Shown here: piece after piece, positions 26,103 to 36,421 of the stretch
Layout: each line of letters opens with the position of its first letter
Numbering within the stretch: position 1 is the first letter of the stretch
Source of the DNA: Williamsia faeni
GTDB taxonomy: Bacteria; Actinomycetota; Actinomycetes; Mycobacteriales; Mycobacteriaceae
Assembly: GCA_003202005.1 (NCBI GenBank)
Contig: QJJF01000006.1
Span: 1 to 64,000 of the forward strand
DNA: 64,000 bases
Reading direction: 5' to 3'
The notes under the pieces: model-generated
Told to the model about the DNA's origin: nothing
What the model saw: the letters and a program-made list of their open reading frames with translations, nothing else
Databases searched by the model: none
Translations under genes and position numbers: made by a program

Positions 26103-27488
26103 ATGAGCGCACCGACAACCGGCGATCGCAACCACGTGGCAGAGGTCCTTGCCGACGCGGTCATCGACGACCGTGAGGCCGGGATCTACCGGACCAATCG
26201 CCGGATCTTCACCGACGAGGACATCTTCGAACTCGAGATGAAACACATCTTCGAGGGCAACTGGATCTATCTGGCCCACGAGAGCCAGCTGCCGAACCCC
26301 GGTGACTACTTCACGACCAACATCGGCCGCCAGCCCGTTGTCATCACGCGGGACAAGCAGGGTGAGTTGCACCTTCTGGTAAATGCCTGCGCACATCGCG
26401 GAGCCATGATCTGCCGTCGGAAGACCGACAACCGGACAACGCTGACCTGCCCGTTCCACGGGTGGACGTTCCGCAACGACGGAACCCTGCTCAAGGTGAA
26501 GGATCCCGATGGCGCCGGCTATCCGGAGTCGTTCAACGTCAATGGTTCTCACAACATGACCAAGGTCGCCCGGTTCGACAGCTACCGGGGGTTCCTGTTC
26601 GGCAGCCTGAACGACGACGTGCTGCCGCTACGCGAGCACCTGGGCGACACCACCACCGTCATCGACATGCTCGTCGATCAGTCCCCCGAGGGCCTGGAGG
26701 TCCTGAGGGGTTCCTCGACGTACACCTACGACGGGAATTGGAAGGTGCAGGCCGAGAACGGGGCCGACGGCTACCACGTCACCGCAACCCACTGGAACTA
26801 CGCGGCGACCACATCTCGTCGCAGCACCGGCGAGTCGAAGAACGACACGAAAGCACTCGACGCCGGCAGCTGGGGCAAGACCGGTGGCGGCTACTGGTCA
26901 TATCCGAACGGTCACCTGTGCCTTTGGACCTGGGCCGGGAATCCGCAGGACCGACCGCTCTGGGACAAACTCGACACGCTCAAGGAAGAGTTTGGAGATG
27001 CCAAGGGAGAGTTCATGGTCAAGGGTTCACGCAACCTCTGCCTCTACCCGAACGTGTACCTGATGGACCAATTCTCCACGCAGATCCGCCACTTCCGTCC
27101 GATCGCACCGGACAAGACGGAAGTGACCATCTACTGCATCGCACCCAGGGGTGAAAGCAATGAGGCTCGCGCACACCGGATCCGGCAATACGAGGACTTC
27201 TTCAACGCGTCCGGGATGGCGACCCCCGACGACCTGGAAGAGTTCCGGTCCTGCCAGCTGACGTTCCGGGCCCAGGCCGCCCCATGGAACGACATGAGTC
27301 GCGGCGCCGAGCACTGGAAGGACGGTCCCGATGAGGTGGCCACGTCTTTGGGGATGGACAACGTCATCTCGTCCGGTGTGAAGAACGAGGACGAGGGCCT
27401 CTACCCGGTCCAGCACGGCTATTGGCTCGACACCATGCGGGCTGCAGTGGCGTCGGACGACGAGATAGAGACGGGAGCACGCTCATGA
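26103..27488 (+). CDS. benA: Benzoate 1,2-dioxygenase large (alpha) subunit
   Basis: Catalytic subunit of benzoate 1,2-dioxygenase, 461 residues. It hydroxylates benzoate to the cis-1,2-diol using O2 and electrons from BenC. The Rieske [2Fe-2S] ligands are Cys96, His98, Cys116 and His119 (CAHRG...CPFHGW). The mononuclear iron region [16 protein letters not shown] supplies His225 and His230, with bridging Asp222. Length and motifs match BenA/XylX. GGAGG lies 5-6 nt before the ATG. The stop overlaps the benB start (ATGA). Confidence 0.96.
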
Positions 27489-28000
27489 CCACCACCGAGA
27501 CCGGCAGCGCGTTGATCACGCAGAACATGATCGAGCAGTTTCTCTATCGCGAAGCGCGGTACCTCGACGATCGCGAGTTCGAGAAGTGGCTCGAATGCTA
27601 TGCCGATGACGTCGTCTACTGGATGCCGTCCTGGGACGACAACGACAAACTGGTCGAAGATCCCCAGCGCGACATCTCCCTGATCTACTACGGCAACAAG
27701 GGCGGACTCGAGGACCGGGTTTTCCGGATCCGCACCGAACGATCTTCTGCCACATCCCTTCCCGAACCCCGCACGAGCCACAACATCAGCAATGTCGAGG
27801 TGATCGAGCGACGCGGTGATCTCGTCGACGTTCGCTTCAACTGGCACACGATGTACTTCCGGTACAAGACCGTCGACCCGTACTACGGAACATCGTTCTA
27901 CACCATCGATTTCACCGGGGGACAACCGCTGATCCGCCGAAAGACCGTGGTGCTGAAGAACGACTACATCCACCACGTCGTCGACGTCTACCACTTCTGA
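27485..28000 (+). CDS. benB: Benzoate 1,2-dioxygenase small (beta) subunit
   Basis: Structural beta subunit of the dioxygenase, 171 residues, with the family pattern [32 protein letters not shown] and [36 protein letters not shown] at the C-terminus. It forms the alpha3beta3 hexamer with BenA. It starts within the benA stop (ATGA) and is followed 10 nt later by the benC-benD gene. Confidence 0.96.
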
Positions 28001-28010
28001 GGGAACTGAC

Positions 28011-30650
28011 ATGACCACCACACAGGAGGCGCCCAGCGGTACCACCGGCCATCAGGTCGCGCTGGCGTTCGAGGACGGCGTCACCCGCTTCATCACCTGC
28101 CGGGAAGATCAGACGGTGGCTGACGCGTCGTACCGGCAGCGCATCAACATTCCGCTGGACTGTCGCGACGGCGCCTGCGGTACGTGCAAGGCATTCTGTG
28201 AATCCGGTGAGTTCGACGGTGGCACATACATTTCCGATGCCCTCTCCGACGACGAGGCGGCGGCCGGATACACCTTGCCGTGCAGCATGAAGCCACGATC
28301 GGACCTGGTCCTCCAGATCGCTGCCACCTCCGCGATCGCCAAGACCGAGGCGGCCACGTTCGAGTCCACACTCGTCGAGCTGGACCGGATCTCGCCGACC
28401 ACGGTGCGATTCGGCGTCGAGGTGGCCAATCGTTCATCGCTTGCATTCCTGCCCGGGCAATACGTCAACATCTCGGTTCCCGGCACCGACGTCACCCGCA
28501 GCTATTCGTTCAGCAACAATCCGGACGACGAGCGGCTCAGCTTCCTGGTCAAGCTCAGTCCCGGCGGCGCGATGTCGGACTACCTCACCGACCGGGCCCG
28601 GGTCGGCGACACACTCACCTTCACCGGACCGCATGGCTCGTTCTTTCTCCGTGAGAGCGACCGGCCGATCCTGATGCTTGCCGGCGGGACCGGACTGGCG
28701 CCGATCCTGTCGATGCTGCGCAAGCTCGCCACCGACGGCAGCAGCCGACGAGCCCACCTGATCTACGGGGTGAGCGCTGACGACGACCTCGTGGAGACGT
28801 CGGTTCTCGATGAACTCTCGGGCGCTCTAGAAGGATTCACATGGGATCACTGTGTCTCCGATCCGTCGAGTGCCGCGAAGAACAAGGGCTACGTGATGAG
28901 CCTGATCGCGCCACAGCATCTGAACGACGGCGATGTGGCGATGTATCTCTGCGGTCCGCCGCCGATGGTGGAGGCGGCACGCACCCACGTCCGGGACGCG
29001 GGTATCTCACCTACCGGCTTCTACTACGAGAAGTTTGCCCTCGCTGCATCCGCCGGAACGCCTACAACTCCCGAAACAGCTTCTCCTGCAAAACAGTCAG
29101 CCGACGACGAGGAGATCATCCTGGCACCGGACGCGCGCTCCGTTGCCGCGCAGACGATGTTGCCGGCGGCCCGGATCGAACCGTGGACGAGGCCGGTGAC
29201 TGTCACCGACGAGGGCGATACGCCACGGCGAATCGCCGGTCAGGACATGTTCCCCGTGGACAAGACCGTCGAACCGGCCACCGCACCGCTTCGGGTGGTC
29301 GCCCCGGACATGGACGCACCGACGCCCCCGGCACAGGAGGCGCCTGCCGCGACGAGCACCGTCACTGTCGGCACCGGCGGTTACCAGATCGGTGAGGATC
29401 ATCCGGCCGTCCACGAATCCGATGCGATATTCGAGGCCCGCTCGGCACTCGAACTCGGTGCACTCGAAGTGACGTTGGGGCGCTTGAACACTCAACAGCT
29501 GGCCGGCTACCGCCTGCTCGCCGAGTCCACGGTTCCGTACGTATCGGGCGAGCATTTCGTCGATGCGGCCGAGTACACCGAGACCAACGCGGCATTCCAC
29601 GACTACCTGTTCACCCTCACCGGCAACGAGCATCTGCTGCAGGCCTACAAGGCCCTGGGCGTCAAAGGCCGGATGACCGAGGTACTGCGCAACGCGACGT
29701 GGTGCCACCCGCTGTGCGCGCAGGACCACCTCGACATCGTTGCCGCCTTCGAGGCCGGTGACCGCGATACTGCTCGATCGCTGATCATCGCGCATGCCGA
29801 CAGGTCCAAGCAGACGATGCGCCGGGCCATGGCCGACAACCTCGCCGCCCACGCTCCGCGCTTTGTCACACCTGGCCGGTTCACCGGACAGGTCGTGGTG
29901 GTCACCGGTGCCGCACAGGGCATCGGCGAACAGACCGCACGCCGCATCAGCGCCGAGGGTGGCCTGCTCGTTCTGGTCGACCGGTCCGAACTCGTCAAGG
30001 AACTCGCCGACGAACTGACCGCCGGCGGCGCCAACGCCATTGCCGTGACCGCGGATCTGGAGCACTGGGAGGGCGCCGAGTCCGTTGTCCGACAGACACT
30101 GTCGGCGTTCGGCCAGGTGGATGTCCTGATCAACAACGTCGGCGGCGCGATCAATTTCAAGCCGTTCATCGAGTTCACCGATGCCGAAATCCGCTCCGAG
30201 CTCGACCGCTCACTGCTGACCACGCTCTACACCTGCCGGGCCGCCCTGCCGGCGATGGTGAACCGAGGTCGCGGCGTGATCGTCAACGTGTCGTCCGCTG
30301 CGACGCGCGGCATCCATCGCATCCCCTACTCCGCGGCCAAGGGCGGGATCAACGCGATCACGGCCTCGCTCGCGATGGAGTACGCCGATGCCGGTGTCCG
30401 CGTCGTGGCCACCGCACCTGGTGGCACCGAGGCCCCGCCGCGACGCATCTCGCGTGGCACACCGGAGCCGGTGGATGAGACCCAACGCGCATGGCTGCAG
30501 GCCCATGTGGACCAGACGATCTCATCGTCGCTGATGAAGAGGTACGGCACGCTCGATGAACAGGCCGCCGCCATCTGTTTCCTGGCATCGGACGAAGCGT
30601 CGTACATCACCGGAACAGTCCTCCCCGTCGCCGGCGGCGACTGCGGATGA
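28011..30650 (+). CDS. benCD: BenC reductase - FCD-like domain - BenD diol dehydrogenase fusion
   Basis: One uninterrupted 879-codon gene combines functions normally encoded by benC and benD. Residues 14-105: plant-type [2Fe-2S] ferredoxin with Cys51, Cys56, Cys59 and Cys91. Residues 115-345: FAD/NAD reductase with RSYSFSN, GGTGLAPILSML and YLCGPPPMV. Residues 350-470: Pro/Ala-rich linker. Residues 471-612: all-helical FCD-like domain (ARSALELGALEVTLGRL, ETNAAFHDYLFTLTGN). As I recall, this domain also forms the C-terminus of longer actinobacterial BenC proteins. Residues 622-879: complete BenD short-chain dehydrogenase (TGAAQGIG 632-639, NNVGGA, Tyr773, Lys777), which oxidises the cis-diol to catechol with NAD+. 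No stop, frameshift or internal ribosome-binding site separates the parts. The polypeptide would both consume and regenerate NADH. Confidence 0.93.
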   Translation: MTTTQEAPSGTTGHQVALAFEDGVTRFITCREDQTVADASYRQRINIPLDCRDGACGTCKAFCESGEFDGGTYISDALSDDEAAAGYTLPCSMKPRSDLVLQIAATSAIAKTEAATFESTLVELDRISPTTVRFGVEVANRSSLAFLPGQYVNISVPGTDVTRSYSFSNNPDDERLSFLVKLSPGGAMSDYLTDRARVGDTLTFTGPHGSFFLRESDRPILMLAGGTGLAPILSMLRKLATDGSSRRAHLIYGVSADDDLVETSVLDELSGALEGFTWDHCVSDPSSAAKNKGYVMSLIAPQHLNDGDVAMYLCGPPPMVEAARTHVRDAGISPTGFYYEKFALAASAGTPTTPETASPAKQSADDEEIILAPDARSVAAQTMLPAARIEPWTRPVTVTDEGDTPRRIAGQDMFPVDKTVEPATAPLRVVAPDMDAPTPPAQEAPAATSTVTVGTGGYQIGEDHPAVHESDAIFEARSALELGALEVTLGRLNTQQLAGYRLLAESTVPYVSGEHFVDAAEYTETNAAFHDYLFTLTGNEHLLQAYKALGVKGRMTEVLRNATWCHPLCAQDHLDIVAAFEAGDRDTARSLIIAHADRSKQTMRRAMADNLAAHAPRFVTPGRFTGQVVVVTGAAQGIGEQTARRISAEGGLLVLVDRSELVKELADELTAGGANAIAVTADLEHWEGAESVVRQTLSAFGQVDVLINNVGGAINFKPFIEFTDAEIRSELDRSLLTTLYTCRAALPAMVNRGRGVIVNVSSAATRGIHRIPYSAAKGGINAITASLAMEYADAGVRVVATAPGGTEAPPRRISRGTPEPVDETQRAWLQAHVDQTISSSLMKRYGTLDEQAAAICFLASDEASYITGTVLPVAGGDCG

Positions 30651-30714: not shown

Positions 30715-33372
30715 ATGAGGTCCGCGACGGTGTGTGTCGGGCGCGACCGTGAACTCGGTGCGCTTGCTGCGCAGCTCGCCGCGACCGCAACTGACGGCGC
30801 GTTGATCGTCGCGGTGCGCGGAGACAACGGCATCGGGAAGTCGACGTTGGTGCAGGCCCTTGCCGACCGACACAGCGGCCCGGTGTGGTCGGCGACCACC
30901 GCACCATGGGAGACCTCGAGTCCTGGTGCGGTGTTGCACCAACTCTTCCAGCAGGACCTGTCCGGCAACCCGCTGGATGTCGCCACACAGATCGTCGACC
31001 ATGTCACTGCCGCAACAGCTTCCACCAATCAAGGCCTTGTCATCATCGACGACGCCGAACAATCCGACGAGCTGTCTCTGCAGGCGCTGACCACCGCGGT
31101 TCGGCATCATTGCGGCGTTCCGATGTTGGTGGTGCTGACCTTCACCGACCCGACCGCATCGGCGGTAGATCTCGCATCCGACATCATCGTGCTCTGCGGC
31201 CTCGACTCCGCCGCGATAGGTGAACTCGCCCGCAGCCGAGGGGTGGTGGTCCACCCGGCGATGGTGCCGGCACTGGCCGTCCACACCGGCGGCAACCCGC
31301 GATATGTCGCGGCACTGCTCGACGAGGTCCCCGCGCACGTCTGGACCCACCCGGGCGCAGCGCTCCCCGCACCGTCACCAGTGGTGTCGCGCGTGCGGAA
31401 GCAACTCGACGACTGTGGTCCACAGGGACGGTCGCTGGTCGAGGCATTGGCTATCCTGGGTGAGCGCGGTTCCTTCACCGAAGCTGCGGCACTTGCTGAT
31501 TCGAAGACACCGCTGATCGCCATCGACGAAGGCAAGGCCGCCGGACTTCTGATCGATGCACCCGAGCCGTCGCGTTCCCACACCGCCGTGATCCGCGATC
31601 GGATCACCCGGGTCGCGGTCCTCGACATCATGGGTGCCGCCGCAGCGGGACGTGCCCATCTGCGGGCCGCCGACGTTGTCGACGACCCGGTACGCAGCCT
31701 GATCCACCGCGTGAGCGCCACCGCCACGCCCGATCGAGCGCTGGCCGATGCCACTGATGCCCTGGCGCGCGAACGTGGTAACGCCGGCGCCTGGGCCGAA
31801 GCGGCCGGACTGTTCCGAGAGGCCTTTCGTCTCTCGACCGACCGGTCGCTGCGCGAGGACAGGCTGATCCGAACCGCGGATGCCCTGGTGGCCGCGGGAG
31901 ATATCGCCGCCGCACTGGCGCTGGTCCCAGACCTCGAGGCGTTGACCGAGACGGCACTGCGCGATGCGGTGCTCGCCTATCTCGCGATCGTTCGTGGCCG
32001 CGCCGCAGAAGCGGAGATCCGCATGAATCGGGCGTGGGACATCGTCGACAGCGCCACTGACCCGGCGTCGGCAGCGCTCATCGCACAGCGCCACGTCCTG
32101 CATTCACTGAGCCGTTGCGGTGGCGTCGAGGTGGTCGAATGGGCAGACCGGGCACTGTCTTTGGCGCAACCCGACTCCCCCGCAGCCATCGAGGCCGAAG
32201 CCATCCGGGGCCTGGGCCTGGCTTCCTCCGGCCGGCCAGATCTGGCCGACGACGCCTACCGCAACCTGGAGCAACGCGTCCACCCCGGCGTCCAGGCACA
32301 ACGCGTCAGCCTCGGTCGGGGCTGGCTGCAACTCGCCAACGACGACGTGGACGGCGCCCGCACCAATCTCGAAACTGCTGTCGCCACCGCACATATGGGT
32401 GGTTCGGCCCGAATCTCGATGTGGGCCTACGGATGGCTGGCGAGGTTGCAATTTCTCACCGGCGACTGGGATCAGGCGCTGCACACGGTCGCCGATGGGC
32501 GTCAGTTGGCCGAATCGAGTGGAATCGTTCTGGCCACACCACTATTGGAATGGACAGCCGCTCAAGTCCACGTGCTACGTGGATCCTGGGATCTTGCCGG
32601 CGACGCCCTGCGCGCCGCGGAGGCGGTCACGCAGGACTACGAGATCATGCGCGCCCCGGCACTGATCGCACGCGCACAGATCGCCGAGGCCAACGCCGAC
32701 TACGGCGCCGTGATCCGGGCACTGGACCCGGTCCGTGCGATGTCCCCGGGAACGGCACTGGCGCAGCCGGGTTTCTGGCCCTGGGCCGACGTGCTCGCCA
32801 ACGCACTGGTGGTCGACGGACAACTCGCGACCGCGGAATCCTTCTTGGACTCACAGGAAGAACTGGCCCGGCAAGCCGGTCACCGATCCACACAGGCCCG
32901 CCTCGGCTATGCCCGCGGGCGGCTCCTCGGCGCGACCGGTGATCTCCACGGGGCCCGGCGCGCCTTCGAGAACTCATTGACCTTGCTCGACGGCCTGCCG
33001 TTGCGATACGACCTGGCCCGCATCAACTTCGCGTACGGCCAGACCTTGCGCCGGGCCGGCAAACGCCGGTCAGCCGACCCGGTGCTGGCCGCGGCCCGCG
33101 ACATCTACGCGTCACTAGGCGCGACAACGTACGTCGAGCGCTGCGACCGAGAGCTACGGGCCGGCGGCGTCAACGCGACGCTCTCCCGTAGTGACGTCGA
33201 ACTGACACCTCAGGAAGAAGCCGTCACCCGACTGGTCGCCCAAGGACTTTCGAACAAAGAAGTCGCCGCGGAACTCTACGTCTCACCCAAAACAGTGCAG
33301 TACCACCTCACCCGCATCTACTCGAAACTCGGTGTCCGGTCCCGCGTCGACCTGGCAAATCGGTACCACTAG
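30715..33372 (+). CDS. benR: LAL-type LuxR regulator with AAA ATPase domain (candidate BenR)
   Basis: An 885-residue large ATP-binding regulator of the LuxR family. The N-terminal AAA domain has Walker A GDNGIGKST and Walker B LVIIDDAEQ; the middle is a long TPR-like helical region; the C-terminal LuxR helix-turn-helix reads LTPQEEAVTRLVAQGLSNKEVAAELYVSPKTVQYHLTRIYSKLGVRSRVDLA. A LuxR-type BenR activates ben genes in Corynebacterium, and the placement directly after benCD supports the same role. TAGAAT at 30703-30708 sits 7 nt before the ATG with no ribosome-binding site, so the mRNA is probably leaderless with its own promoter. Confidence 0.85.
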   Translation: MRSATVCVGRDRELGALAAQLAATATDGALIVAVRGDNGIGKSTLVQALADRHSGPVWSATTAPWETSSPGAVLHQLFQQDLSGNPLDVATQIVDHVTAATASTNQGLVIIDDAEQSDELSLQALTTAVRHHCGVPMLVVLTFTDPTASAVDLASDIIVLCGLDSAAIGELARSRGVVVHPAMVPALAVHTGGNPRYVAALLDEVPAHVWTHPGAALPAPSPVVSRVRKQLDDCGPQGRSLVEALAILGERGSFTEAAALADSKTPLIAIDEGKAAGLLIDAPEPSRSHTAVIRDRITRVAVLDIMGAAAAGRAHLRAADVVDDPVRSLIHRVSATATPDRALADATDALARERGNAGAWAEAAGLFREAFRLSTDRSLREDRLIRTADALVAAGDIAAALALVPDLEALTETALRDAVLAYLAIVRGRAAEAEIRMNRAWDIVDSATDPASAALIAQRHVLHSLSRCGGVEVVEWADRALSLAQPDSPAAIEAEAIRGLGLASSGRPDLADDAYRNLEQRVHPGVQAQRVSLGRGWLQLANDDVDGARTNLETAVATAHMGGSARISMWAYGWLARLQFLTGDWDQALHTVADGRQLAESSGIVLATPLLEWTAAQVHVLRGSWDLAGDALRAAEAVTQDYEIMRAPALIARAQIAEANADYGAVIRALDPVRAMSPGTALAQPGFWPWADVLANALVVDGQLATAESFLDSQEELARQAGHRSTQARLGYARGRLLGATGDLHGARRAFENSLTLLDGLPLRYDLARINFAYGQTLRRAGKRRSADPVLAAARDIYASLGATTYVERCDRELRAGGVNATLSRSDVELTPQEEAVTRLVAQGLSNKEVAAELYVSPKTVQYHLTRIYSKLGVRSRVDLANRYH

Positions 33373-34407: not shown

Positions 34408-35619
34408 TCAGGTGGTGCGTTCGAACACCGCCGCCAGCCCCTGACCGCCACCGATGCACATCGTCTCCAGTCCGTAGCGGCCCTCGCGACGATCGAGTTC
34501 ACGCAGCAAGGTCGCGAGGATCCGAGCACCGGTGGCCCCGACCGGATGTCCGAGCGAGATCCCCGATCCGTGTGGATTGAGCCGCTCGTCGCCGGCATCG
34601 AGTTGCCAGGCCTGCAATACCGCCAGCACCTGGGCGGCAAACGCCTCATTCAGCTCGATCAGGTTCATGTCGTCCATCGTCAGTCCGAGTCGGCCGAGCA
34701 CCTTCGCGACGGCGCCCACCGGACCAAAGCCCATCCGCGAGGGCTCCAGTCCGCTGACACCCCAACCCGCCAGGCGGGCTAGCGGACGTAGTCCCAGTTC
34801 TGCCGCGCGCTCGGGTGTGGTCACGATGCACGCCGCGGCCCCATCGTTCTGACCGCTGGCGTTACCTGCCGTCACGGTCGATTCGGGGTCGACCTTTATG
34901 CGGATCGGGCGCAGAGCGGTCAGCGATTCCATCGAGGTGTCGGCGCGTGGATGCTCGTCGGTGTCGATCACCACAGCCGGACCACGACGCTGCGGCACGC
35001 TCACCGGGACGATCTCCTCGGCGAACAGTCCACTGGTTTGTGCCGCAACAGCTTTCCGATGCGATTCGACCGCGAGTGCATCCTGGTCGGCACGGCTGAT
35101 CCCGAACTCCGCTCGTAGATTCTCGGCGGTCTCGATCATCCCGCCCGGCACCGGGAACTTGATGCCGCCGGCGGTGACCCGCGCGCGGGCCAGTCGGTCG
35201 GACAACTCGACACCGGATCCCTTGACACCCCACCTGATCGAATCCGTATAGAACTCGGCCTGACTCATCGATTCGGCACCACCGGCGATCACCAGATCAC
35301 TGGCGCCCGTGGCGACCTGCATGCACGCCTGCAACACCGCCTGCAGGCCCGATCCGCACCGACGGTCGACCTGCATACCCGGCGCCCCGATGCCCAATCC
35401 GGCATCGAGCGCGGCAACCCGGCCGATCGCGGGCGCTTCGCCATTTGGCGTGCCCTGACCGAGGATCACGTCGTCGACCTGATCCGGGAAGATGCCCGTC
35501 CGATTCATGAGCTCCGCGATGACGGTTGCCGCAAGTGACTGTGGTGCAATGTCTTTGAACTGTCCACCGAAGCGGCCCACCGGGGTACGCAGGGGTTCGC
35601 AGATGACGGCGTCGGGCAT
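34408..35619 (-). CDS. pcaF: Beta-ketoadipyl-CoA thiolase
   Basis: A 403-residue thiolase that splits 3-oxoadipyl-CoA with CoA into succinyl-CoA and acetyl-CoA. The acyl-acceptor Cys88 is in DRRCGSG, the catalytic His is in GHPVGATGARI and the second Cys is in CIGGGQGLA; NEAFAAQ is present. Sequence alone does not separate PcaF from other thiolases, but the position between pca regulators and near pcaD and pcaIJ makes the assignment secure. It lies 22 bp after the first iclR gene, in the same transcription unit. Confidence 0.9.
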   Translation of the reverse strand: MPDAVICEPLRTPVGRFGGQFKDIAPQSLAATVIAELMNRTGIFPDQVDDVILGQGTPNGEAPAIGRVAALDAGLGIGAPGMQVDRRCGSGLQAVLQACMQVATGASDLVIAGGAESMSQAEFYTDSIRWGVKGSGVELSDRLARARVTAGGIKFPVPGGMIETAENLRAEFGISRADQDALAVESHRKAVAAQTSGLFAEEIVPVSVPQRRGPAVVIDTDEHPRADTSMESLTALRPIRIKVDPESTVTAGNASGQNDGAAACIVTTPERAAELGLRPLARLAGWGVSGLEPSRMGFGPVGAVAKVLGRLGLTMDDMNLIELNEAFAAQVLAVLQAWQLDAGDERLNPHGSGISLGHPVGATGARILATLLRELDRREGRYGLETMCIGGGQGLAAVFERTT

Positions 35620-35641: not shown

Positions 35642-36421
35642 TCAGAGCGCAGATGAGGCGCGGGTCAGGTCAGCGGTCATCGCCGACGCGGCTTTCAGCA
35701 ATTCGGGCAGTAGATCGCCGCGCACGGCATCAAGGCTGTACCGCGCCGACTGGGTGGATATGTTGACCGCAGCGATCACCGAGCCGTCCCGCCCGTGCAC
35801 CGGGGCGGCCAGCGAGCGCAGACCCAATTCGAGTTCCTCCTCGACGATGCAATATCCGTCGCGCCGGGTCCGCTCGATGGCGTCACGCAGCTCAGCGGTC
35901 GTGAGCTTAGTGTGTTCGGTCAATGCCACGGGTGACACCCTCTCGAGGTGCTCGTCGAGGTCCGCCGGCGCCAGATCGGCGAGCAGAACCCGTCCCATCG
36001 ACGTTGCGTATGCCGGGAATCGGGTGCCGATCGTGATGGACACCGCCATGATCCGGCTCACCGGAACACGTGCGACGTAGACGATGTCGTCGCCGTCGAG
36101 GATCGAGACCGACGCCGATTCGTGCACCCTCGCGGTCAGGGCTTCGAGATGCGGACCCGCGATCTCCGGCAGCGACAGGCTCGACAGGTAGCTGTAGCCG
36201 AGGTCCAGAACCCGCGGGGTGAGCCAGAAGACCGTCCCGTCGGATCGGACGTATCCGAGGTCGGCAAGGGTGAGCAGGAATCGCCGGGCCGCCGGCCGGG
36301 ACAACCCGGTGGACGACGCGATCTCACTGACACTCTGCCGTGGATGTTCGGCGTCGAACGCACGGATCACCGCCAGCCCACGGGCGAGGGACTGGACGTG
36401 GTCACCGGAGCCGGCCGTCAT
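35642..36421 (-). CDS. pcaR: IclR family regulator PcaR
   Basis: A 259-residue IclR regulator with the N-terminal helix-turn-helix (VQSLARGLAVIRAFDAEHPRQSVSEIASSTGLSRPAARRFLLTLADLGYV) and the effector domain (YVARVPVSRIMAVSITIGTRFPAYATSMGRVLLA). It is placed inside the pca unit with its ATG overlapping the pcaD stop (ATGA), as expected for PcaR. The likely effector is beta-ketoadipate or a nearby intermediate, and the likely targets are the paired TGTAC operators at 37209-37244. Confidence 0.88.
   Translation of the reverse strand: MTAGSGDHVQSLARGLAVIRAFDAEHPRQSVSEIASSTGLSRPAARRFLLTLADLGYVRSDGTVFWLTPRVLDLGYSYLSSLSLPEIAGPHLEALTARVHESASVSILDGDDIVYVARVPVSRIMAVSITIGTRFPAYATSMGRVLLADLAPADLDEHLERVSPVALTEHTKLTTAELRDAIERTRRDGYCIVEEELELGLRSLAAPVHGRDGSVIAAVNISTQSARYSLDAVRGDLLPELLKAASAMTADLTRASSAL

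Follow-up and report, generated by a model that had tools for sequence, protein, structure and literature searches.

A benzoate dioxygenase reductase-FCD-diol dehydrogenase fusion widespread in actinobacteria and a possible role for its FCD domain as a metal-holding gate

Introduction

The fusion of the benzoate dioxygenase reductase (BenC) and the cis-diol dehydrogenase (BenD) in one protein has a precedent in Gordonia alkanivorans YC-RL2, whose benC and benD genes were described in 2019 as fused with an FCD domain (PMC6362181, consulted in part). In the portion consulted of a report on Rhodococcus ruber, benC is labelled reductase/dehydrogenase (PMC6498646), and the corresponding portion of PMC7276702 makes no mention of a fusion. 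FCD domains are otherwise the effector domains of GntR regulators. According to the sections seen of the study of one such regulator, Atu1419, its Zn ligands are Asn137, His141, His192 and His214 (PMC7797058). Control of an oxygenase reductase by a domain borrowed from a transcription factor also has a precedent: in HpaC from A. baumannii, a C-terminal MarR domain keeps the flavin reductase inhibited, and binding of the substrate lifts this inhibition (review PMC10816480, seen in part).

Here we describe a benC-FCD-benD fusion gene in a window of 64,000 nucleotides of Williamsia DNA, the whole stretch that was analyzed. A preliminary description of the locus knew of benC and benD only as separate genes, a view that the Gordonia case contradicts. 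Thus, the fusion architecture is already in print and not new, and the relatives described below, together with the part of PMC6362181 consulted, rule out that it is unique. Considered simply as a fusion, it is only modestly interesting, since one case has been published and the family is widespread. New here are an order of assembly in which the FCD domain most likely came first, with two probable losses, the invariance of residues at a predicted Zn site, the association of related FCD domains with other reductases, fusions to a cytochrome P450, and a conserved motif in the linker.

Results

The fusion gene lies in a tight operon with benA and benB (Table 1). Its start is 10 bases after the benB stop and is preceded by GAGGGA; the start codon of benB shares bases with the benA stop (ATGA at 27485). 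Both upstream starts were read by eye from the DNA, that of benA as the ATG after GGAGG. A gene for an ATPase/LuxR-type regulator follows the fusion and possibly belongs to the ben operon. Further downstream, a PcaR/PcaU/PobR-type regulator of the beta-ketoadipate pathway (35645-36421, minus strand) adjoins a thiolase gene (34408-35619), which points to genes of central aromatic catabolism nearby.

Table 1. Positions of the fusion gene, its parts, its neighbors in the window and related P450 fusions.
Feature	Position	Strand	Basis
benA, benzoate 1,2-dioxygenase large subunit	26103..27488	+	TIGR03229 805.6 bits, cut-off 780.95
benB, small subunit	27485..28000	+	TIGR03232 271.3 bits, cut-off 225.55
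benC-FCD-benD fusion gene, 879 aa	28011..30650	+	open frame, ATG 28011, stop 30648-30650
BenC reductase part (residues 14-343): 2Fe-2S, FAD, NAD domains	28050..29039	+	NF040810, Pfam
Linker (residues 344-470), pLDDT mostly <50	29040..29420	+	AlphaFold2
Degenerate motif copy ARSVAAQTMLP (residues 375-385)	29133..29165	+	from translation; outside strict pattern
Linker motif RRIAGQDMFP (residues 406-415)	29226..29255	+	pattern search
FCD domain (residues 473-597), predicted Zn ligands N526, H530, H573, H595	29427..29801	+	PF07729
BenD diol dehydrogenase part (residues 623-879), Y773-x3-K777	29877..30647	+	NF040811
ATPase/LuxR-type regulator downstream of fusion	30715..33372	+	AAA_16 + GerE (Pfam)
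BenC-FCD-P450 loci, Paraburkholderia plasmids (L112, L113, L115-L117)	L112:4001-6787 (NZ_CP134198.1)		

All three parts of the protein scored above curated cut-offs: BenC against the NCBIfam equivalog NF040810 (479 bits, cut-off 430), the FCD domain against Pfam PF07729 (52.6 bits, cut-off 24.3) and BenD against NCBIfam NF040811 (408 bits, cut-off 380). The other Pfam domains recovered were Fer2, FAD_binding_6, NAD_binding_1 and adh_short. The cysteines of the 2Fe-2S cluster (51/56/59/91) are identical in all 35 aligned fusions, and so is the catalytic K777 of BenD, its partner Y773 being present in 34. These matches bear out the earlier account of a single frame of 879 codons with all the reductase motifs and a full-length BenD SDR. 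That account rightly assigned the middle domain to GntR regulators but called it 'FCD-like', which undersells a true member of PF07729. No other BenD in the whole genome exceeds the NF040811 cut-off. Some ATG codons just before the BenD part could in principle serve an internal start, and no clear ribosome site accompanies them by eye. A Pfam scan of the 879-aa protein (E 0.001) recovered no GntR winged helix (PF00392) and neither a Flavin_Reduct nor a MarR domain, which places the protein outside the HpaC family. The possibility that it is still a DNA-binding regulator was ruled out, as no helix-turn-helix was found in it.

BenC and the FCD domain are joined by a linker that ranges from 88 to 197 aa in 35 fusions (34 triple fusions and the Pseudonocardia nigra protein described below) and from 36 to 54 aa in five proteins with BenC and FCD but no fused BenD. 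The preliminary description saw a Pro/Ala linker; its Pro/Ala content is real, but the linker is not a plain one and holds a conserved motif. The pattern R-x-x-[AMCVT]-G-Q occurs in 67 copies in the linkers of the 35 fusions, at least once in 32 and at least twice in 24 of them (the strict motif is absent from three), compared with none of the five unfused BenC-FCD proteins and a mean of 0.007 copies per protein in shuffled linkers. A longer pattern matched 47 BenC/BenD-related frames, which include second views of one gene at several loci, and no other among 3221 frames of at least 80 aa. The conserved short motif of the linker reads R-x-I-A-G-Q-x-x-F-P.

The same architecture was found in many relatives, as a search of related genomes proposed in the preliminary description was meant to establish: the order BenC-FCD-BenD in one frame is present in 34 distinct sequences including this one, once two second views (L053, L070) are removed from 36 entries. 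The fusion is, therefore, a widespread family shared by many actinobacteria. Three scans contributed. Their counts are not additive, because the genome sets overlap; L009 and L037, for example, represent one protein. A scan of genome contigs gave 26 loci, 20 of them with BenC-FCD-BenD in one frame, in Williamsia, Aldersonia, Saccharopolyspora, Gordonia, Mycobacterium, Nocardioides, Amycolatopsis, Antrihabitans, Pseudonocardia, Geodermatophilus and Granulicoccus. The rest were a BenC-BenD fusion without FCD (P. nigra), separate BenC and BenD genes without FCD (Onishia) and four Kocuria loci with BenC-FCD and BenD in other frames; at one of these four, L029, BenD is broken over several frames. 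Among 61 genomes (own and relatives), 13 matched at 1e-60, nine with one frame over both halves, two with BenC-FCD plus BenD and two with plain BenC plus BenD. Across the class, 17 of 394 genomes matched: 11 fused, two unfused (G399, G062) and four partial or distant; weak reductases (G274, G146, G420) and a BenD alone (G240) were not counted as ben fusions. By comparison, at least three of 369 genomes of the class of Onishia matched, all in the BenC part only (frames of 346, 348 and 444 aa), with two candidates scored per genome. A Tsukamurella plasmid also carries BenC-FCD-BenD, annotated only as BenC, and there too a helix-turn-helix regulator follows benC.

The main alignment (A1) comprised 40 proteins, after three BenC-FCD entries (L029, L032, L072) had been left out as near copies, for a broken neighbor gene or as a cut view. 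In a BenC tree of 46 rows with midpoint root, the 34 triple fusions group with P. nigra and G399 (36 rows, support 86/94, not starred), and the BenC-FCD rows and remaining plain BenC rows fall outside this group. The FCD-less P. nigra fusion is nested in Pseudonocardia (100/98) and G399 clusters with just G336 and G286 (99/97). The likeliest interpretation of these nested positions is that two lineages of the fused group lost the FCD domain. In G399 (L063), which has no FCD domain, the BenC and BenD frames are separate and abut at a stop, and the split BenC ends with one linker motif. The P. nigra fusion (L028:4965-7226) has a His at the catalytic Tyr of BenD. Outside the fused group, BenC-FCD with separate BenD (Kocuria, G030, G034, G062) is mixed with BenC without FCD (G022, G031, Onishia), as in the pairing of G034 with G031 (99/96), and this mixture indicates that the domain was gained or lost there too. 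The surviving forms and the tree suggest as the simplest reading, short of proof, that the FCD domain most likely joined BenC first and that BenD was added later.

Structure prediction, another check put forward for residues of this domain, gave a confident model of the FCD domain alone (AlphaFold2, pLDDT 95.2) with the predicted fold of a GntR effector domain, its best solved matches in Foldseek being the inducer domain of DhdR followed by Atu1419/VanR. Among solved structures, the FCD sequence by itself had no useful match, and profile searches gave weak to moderate matches. In the full-length model (AlphaFold2, pTM 0.46), which does not fix the arrangement of the domains, the final helix of the FCD domain (585-614) extends almost to BenD. 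With the help of the profile search, Atu1419 was aligned by eye to the fusion; in that alignment, N526, H530, H573 and H595 appear to match its Zn ligands and Arg477 its citrate-binding Arg86. At the level of residues, the protein also has the pattern of the metal-binding FCD subgroup (Asn/Asp-x3-His and two more His). The four putative ligands do not vary in 39 of 39 BenC FCD domains, and neither do Arg477 and Glu481. Invariance at the Zn-site positions argues that the site is under selection, and the domain is predicted to hold a metal, probably Zn. The same invariance of pocket residues ruled out that the FCD domain is a decayed remnant.

Related FCD domains are found on other reductases. 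A profile from six BenC FCD domains had one match outside BenC at 1e-8 in 41 genomes, a flavin reductase-GntR-FCD protein (L081, 7.4e-16). In the 394 genomes of the class, with up to 10 candidates scored per genome, at least four FCD domains outside BenC matched at 1e-11, three in flavin reductase-GntR-FCD proteins (L103, L104, L105) and the fourth (L106/L111) in a frame after and overlapping a flavin reductase frame. A luciferase-like monooxygenase gene adjoins three of the four fused flavin reductases (L081, L103-L105); the three scanned neighbors of the fourth encode an amidohydrolase, a hydrolase and a dehydrogenase-like protein. All four contain a GntR helix-turn-helix stretch (above the Pfam cut-off in three) and may, for this reason, bind DNA. 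The last His of the Zn site is a Tyr in all four of the flavin reductase FCD domains and the middle His is a Gln in two. A Zn gate cannot, therefore, be common to all reductase-linked FCD domains, which leaves the idea of gating in BenC unaffected.

Five Paraburkholderia plasmids encode a BenC-like reductase, an FCD domain and a cytochrome P450 in one frame of 929 aa. Only one of the five records has a gene annotated there (L112), and it is called BenC. The FCD domains of these proteins are 42-46% identical to that of the Williamsia fusion. When the FCD domain of one P450 fusion was searched at 1e-12 against the plasmid collection through which Paraburkholderia was sampled, all six records matched were reductase fusions (five P450 and one BenD). 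A literature search for a BenC-FCD-P450 protein found nothing. Within the genome of the fusion itself, the best FCD match among regulators was 1.1e-7, which lends no support to the FCD domain being a copy taken from one of the genome's own regulators. In an FCD tree, built from an alignment (A4) of 41 rows that omits L010 and L011 and with 12 of the rows dropped as near copies, the reductase-linked FCD domains stand weakly apart (65/92, long branches) from ten regulators, all from this one genome.

Discussion

The conservation of the predicted Zn site and the repeated association of the FCD domain with reductases lead us to propose, with a confidence that falls just short of even, that the domain is a ligand-responsive, metal-holding gate on the NADH reductase BenC. 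In the fusion, BenC passes electrons from NADH to the BenAB oxygenase, and BenD oxidizes the resulting cis-diol and regenerates NADH. The FCD domain between them is the ligand-sensing domain of a GntR regulator minus the DNA-binding part. With a metal in place, probably Zn held by N526, H530, H573 and H595, it could bind a small carboxylic acid from benzoate breakdown; binding could change the rate at which BenC uses NADH or its access to BenAB. The likeness of Arg477 to the citrate-binding Arg86, together with the match of the Zn sites, makes a small acid the likely ligand. Benzoate is a candidate go signal, and the cis-diol could act as a brake or find a holding site in the domain. The cis-diol of benzoate is an alpha-hydroxy acid, and so is the inducer of DhdR, L2HG, which we take to be 2-hydroxyglutarate. 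The FCD domain lies a few residues from BenD, and BenC is tethered by a long flexible linker with conserved motifs, so that BenC may move back and forth between the core of the fusion and the oxygenase. Perhaps BenD joined later because the FCD domain senses or holds its substrate. The gating model has to contend with the fact that the domain is dispensable, as it is missing from P. nigra and G399 in the fused group and from BenC proteins elsewhere.

Other roles of the fusion were weighed against this proposal. BenC and BenD catalyze successive NADH-consuming and NADH-forming steps of an established pathway, and the fusion could, as suggested in the preliminary description, recycle NAD(H) locally and deliver to BenD the unstable cis-diol that the oxygenase makes; the FCD domain would then be a spacer. 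The only BenD of the genome above the cut-off being the fused one, and the occurrence of the fusion in 34 distinct sequences, are consistent with this role. However, NAD(H) is freely diffusible, and BenAB, the enzyme that makes the diol, does not belong to the fused chain. Furthermore, BenC-FCD proteins exist without a fused BenD, the same FCD domain is found on reductases without any BenD, and four metal-site residues unchanged in 39 of 39 sequences are not what one would expect of a spacer. We consider NAD(H) recycling unlikely as the role of the fusion, and it explains neither the FCD domain nor its invariance.

We regard as similarly unlikely that the FCD domain is only a dimerization scaffold tying BenC to a BenD oligomer. 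FCD regulators do form dimers, whose interfaces are described in the sections seen of PMC7797058, and the closeness of the last FCD helix to BenD in the predicted structure would fit such a scaffold. On the other hand, dimerization does not account for Zn-site residues and an Arg477 that never vary among the 39 domains, and P. nigra has a fusion without the domain, though its BenD has lost the catalytic Tyr.

The linker motifs raise the prospect that the fusion docks on BenAB or another partner in a multienzyme complex in which the FCD domain is secondary, an explanation to which we give little credence. It draws on the abundance of the motif in 32 of 35 fusions relative to shuffled linkers and the five BenC-FCD proteins, on the specificity of the longer pattern for BenC/BenD-related frames, and on the presence of the motif both in P. 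nigra, whose fusion has no FCD domain, and where the split BenC of G399 ends. Set against this, three fusions do without the strict motif and the sequences are related, so that the copies are not independent. That the motif docks specifically to BenAB is a guess.

Finally, no support was found for an artefact of sequencing or assembly, such as a frameshift or a lost stop, which the preliminary description proposed to exclude by resequencing. It is excluded in practice by the same single frame in 34 distinct sequences and the Tsukamurella plasmid record. Codon-position G+C (0.71/0.59/0.73) has a lower contrast in the linker than in the three domains, as expected from the Pro/Ala content of the linker.

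If the FCD domain does gate the reductase, the control of an aromatic oxygenase would be exerted at the protein level, within one polypeptide and by a sensor taken from gene regulation. Such gating could curb the futile oxidation of NADH and the production of peroxide. The control proposed for BenC may extend to the P450 and flavin reductase proteins, and the occurrence of the same module in them would then mark it as a reusable control part. More tentatively than for BenC itself, we suggest a reductase-FCD module in which an effector domain, having left the GntR regulators, acts as a direct gate on the NADH reductases that serve oxygenases. The module would recur in BenC-FCD, BenC-FCD-BenD, BenC-FCD-P450 and flavin reductase-GntR-FCD proteins, so that NADH would be spent only with the right compound; in the triple fusions, the repeated linker motif would add docking to the oxygenase.

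The closest described protein, that of G. alkanivorans YC-RL2, belongs to a benABCD operon that is followed, as here, by a LuxR-type regulator, but its FCD domain is called C-terminal, whereas in the Williamsia fusion the domain stands between the two enzymes (PMC6362181, in the part consulted). The same portion of that report gives the fusion a few sentences drawn from annotation, which do not take up relatives, a metal site, a linker motif or a mechanism. Our literature searches met no functional study of the BenC-FCD-BenD architecture. The Paraburkholderia proteins share the reductase type and the FCD domain in one frame and differ in their third part, a P450 instead of BenD. Like Atu1419/VanR, TM0439 and DhdR, the fusion has the FCD fold, and with Atu1419 it appears to share the Zn site of one Asn and three His; yet those proteins are DNA-binding regulators with a winged helix, of which the Pfam scan found none in the fusion. 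HpaC, of the 4-HPA hydroxylase, resembles the fusion in combining the NADH reductase of an aromatic oxygenase with the ligand domain of a transcription factor. The two differ in that domain (MarR versus FCD) and in their redox chemistry (free flavin versus 2Fe-2S/FAD), and HpaC has no attached dehydrogenase. In HpaC, substrate binding relieves the self-inhibition of the reductase; the architecture of the fusion suggests that the FCD domain could gate BenC in a comparable manner.
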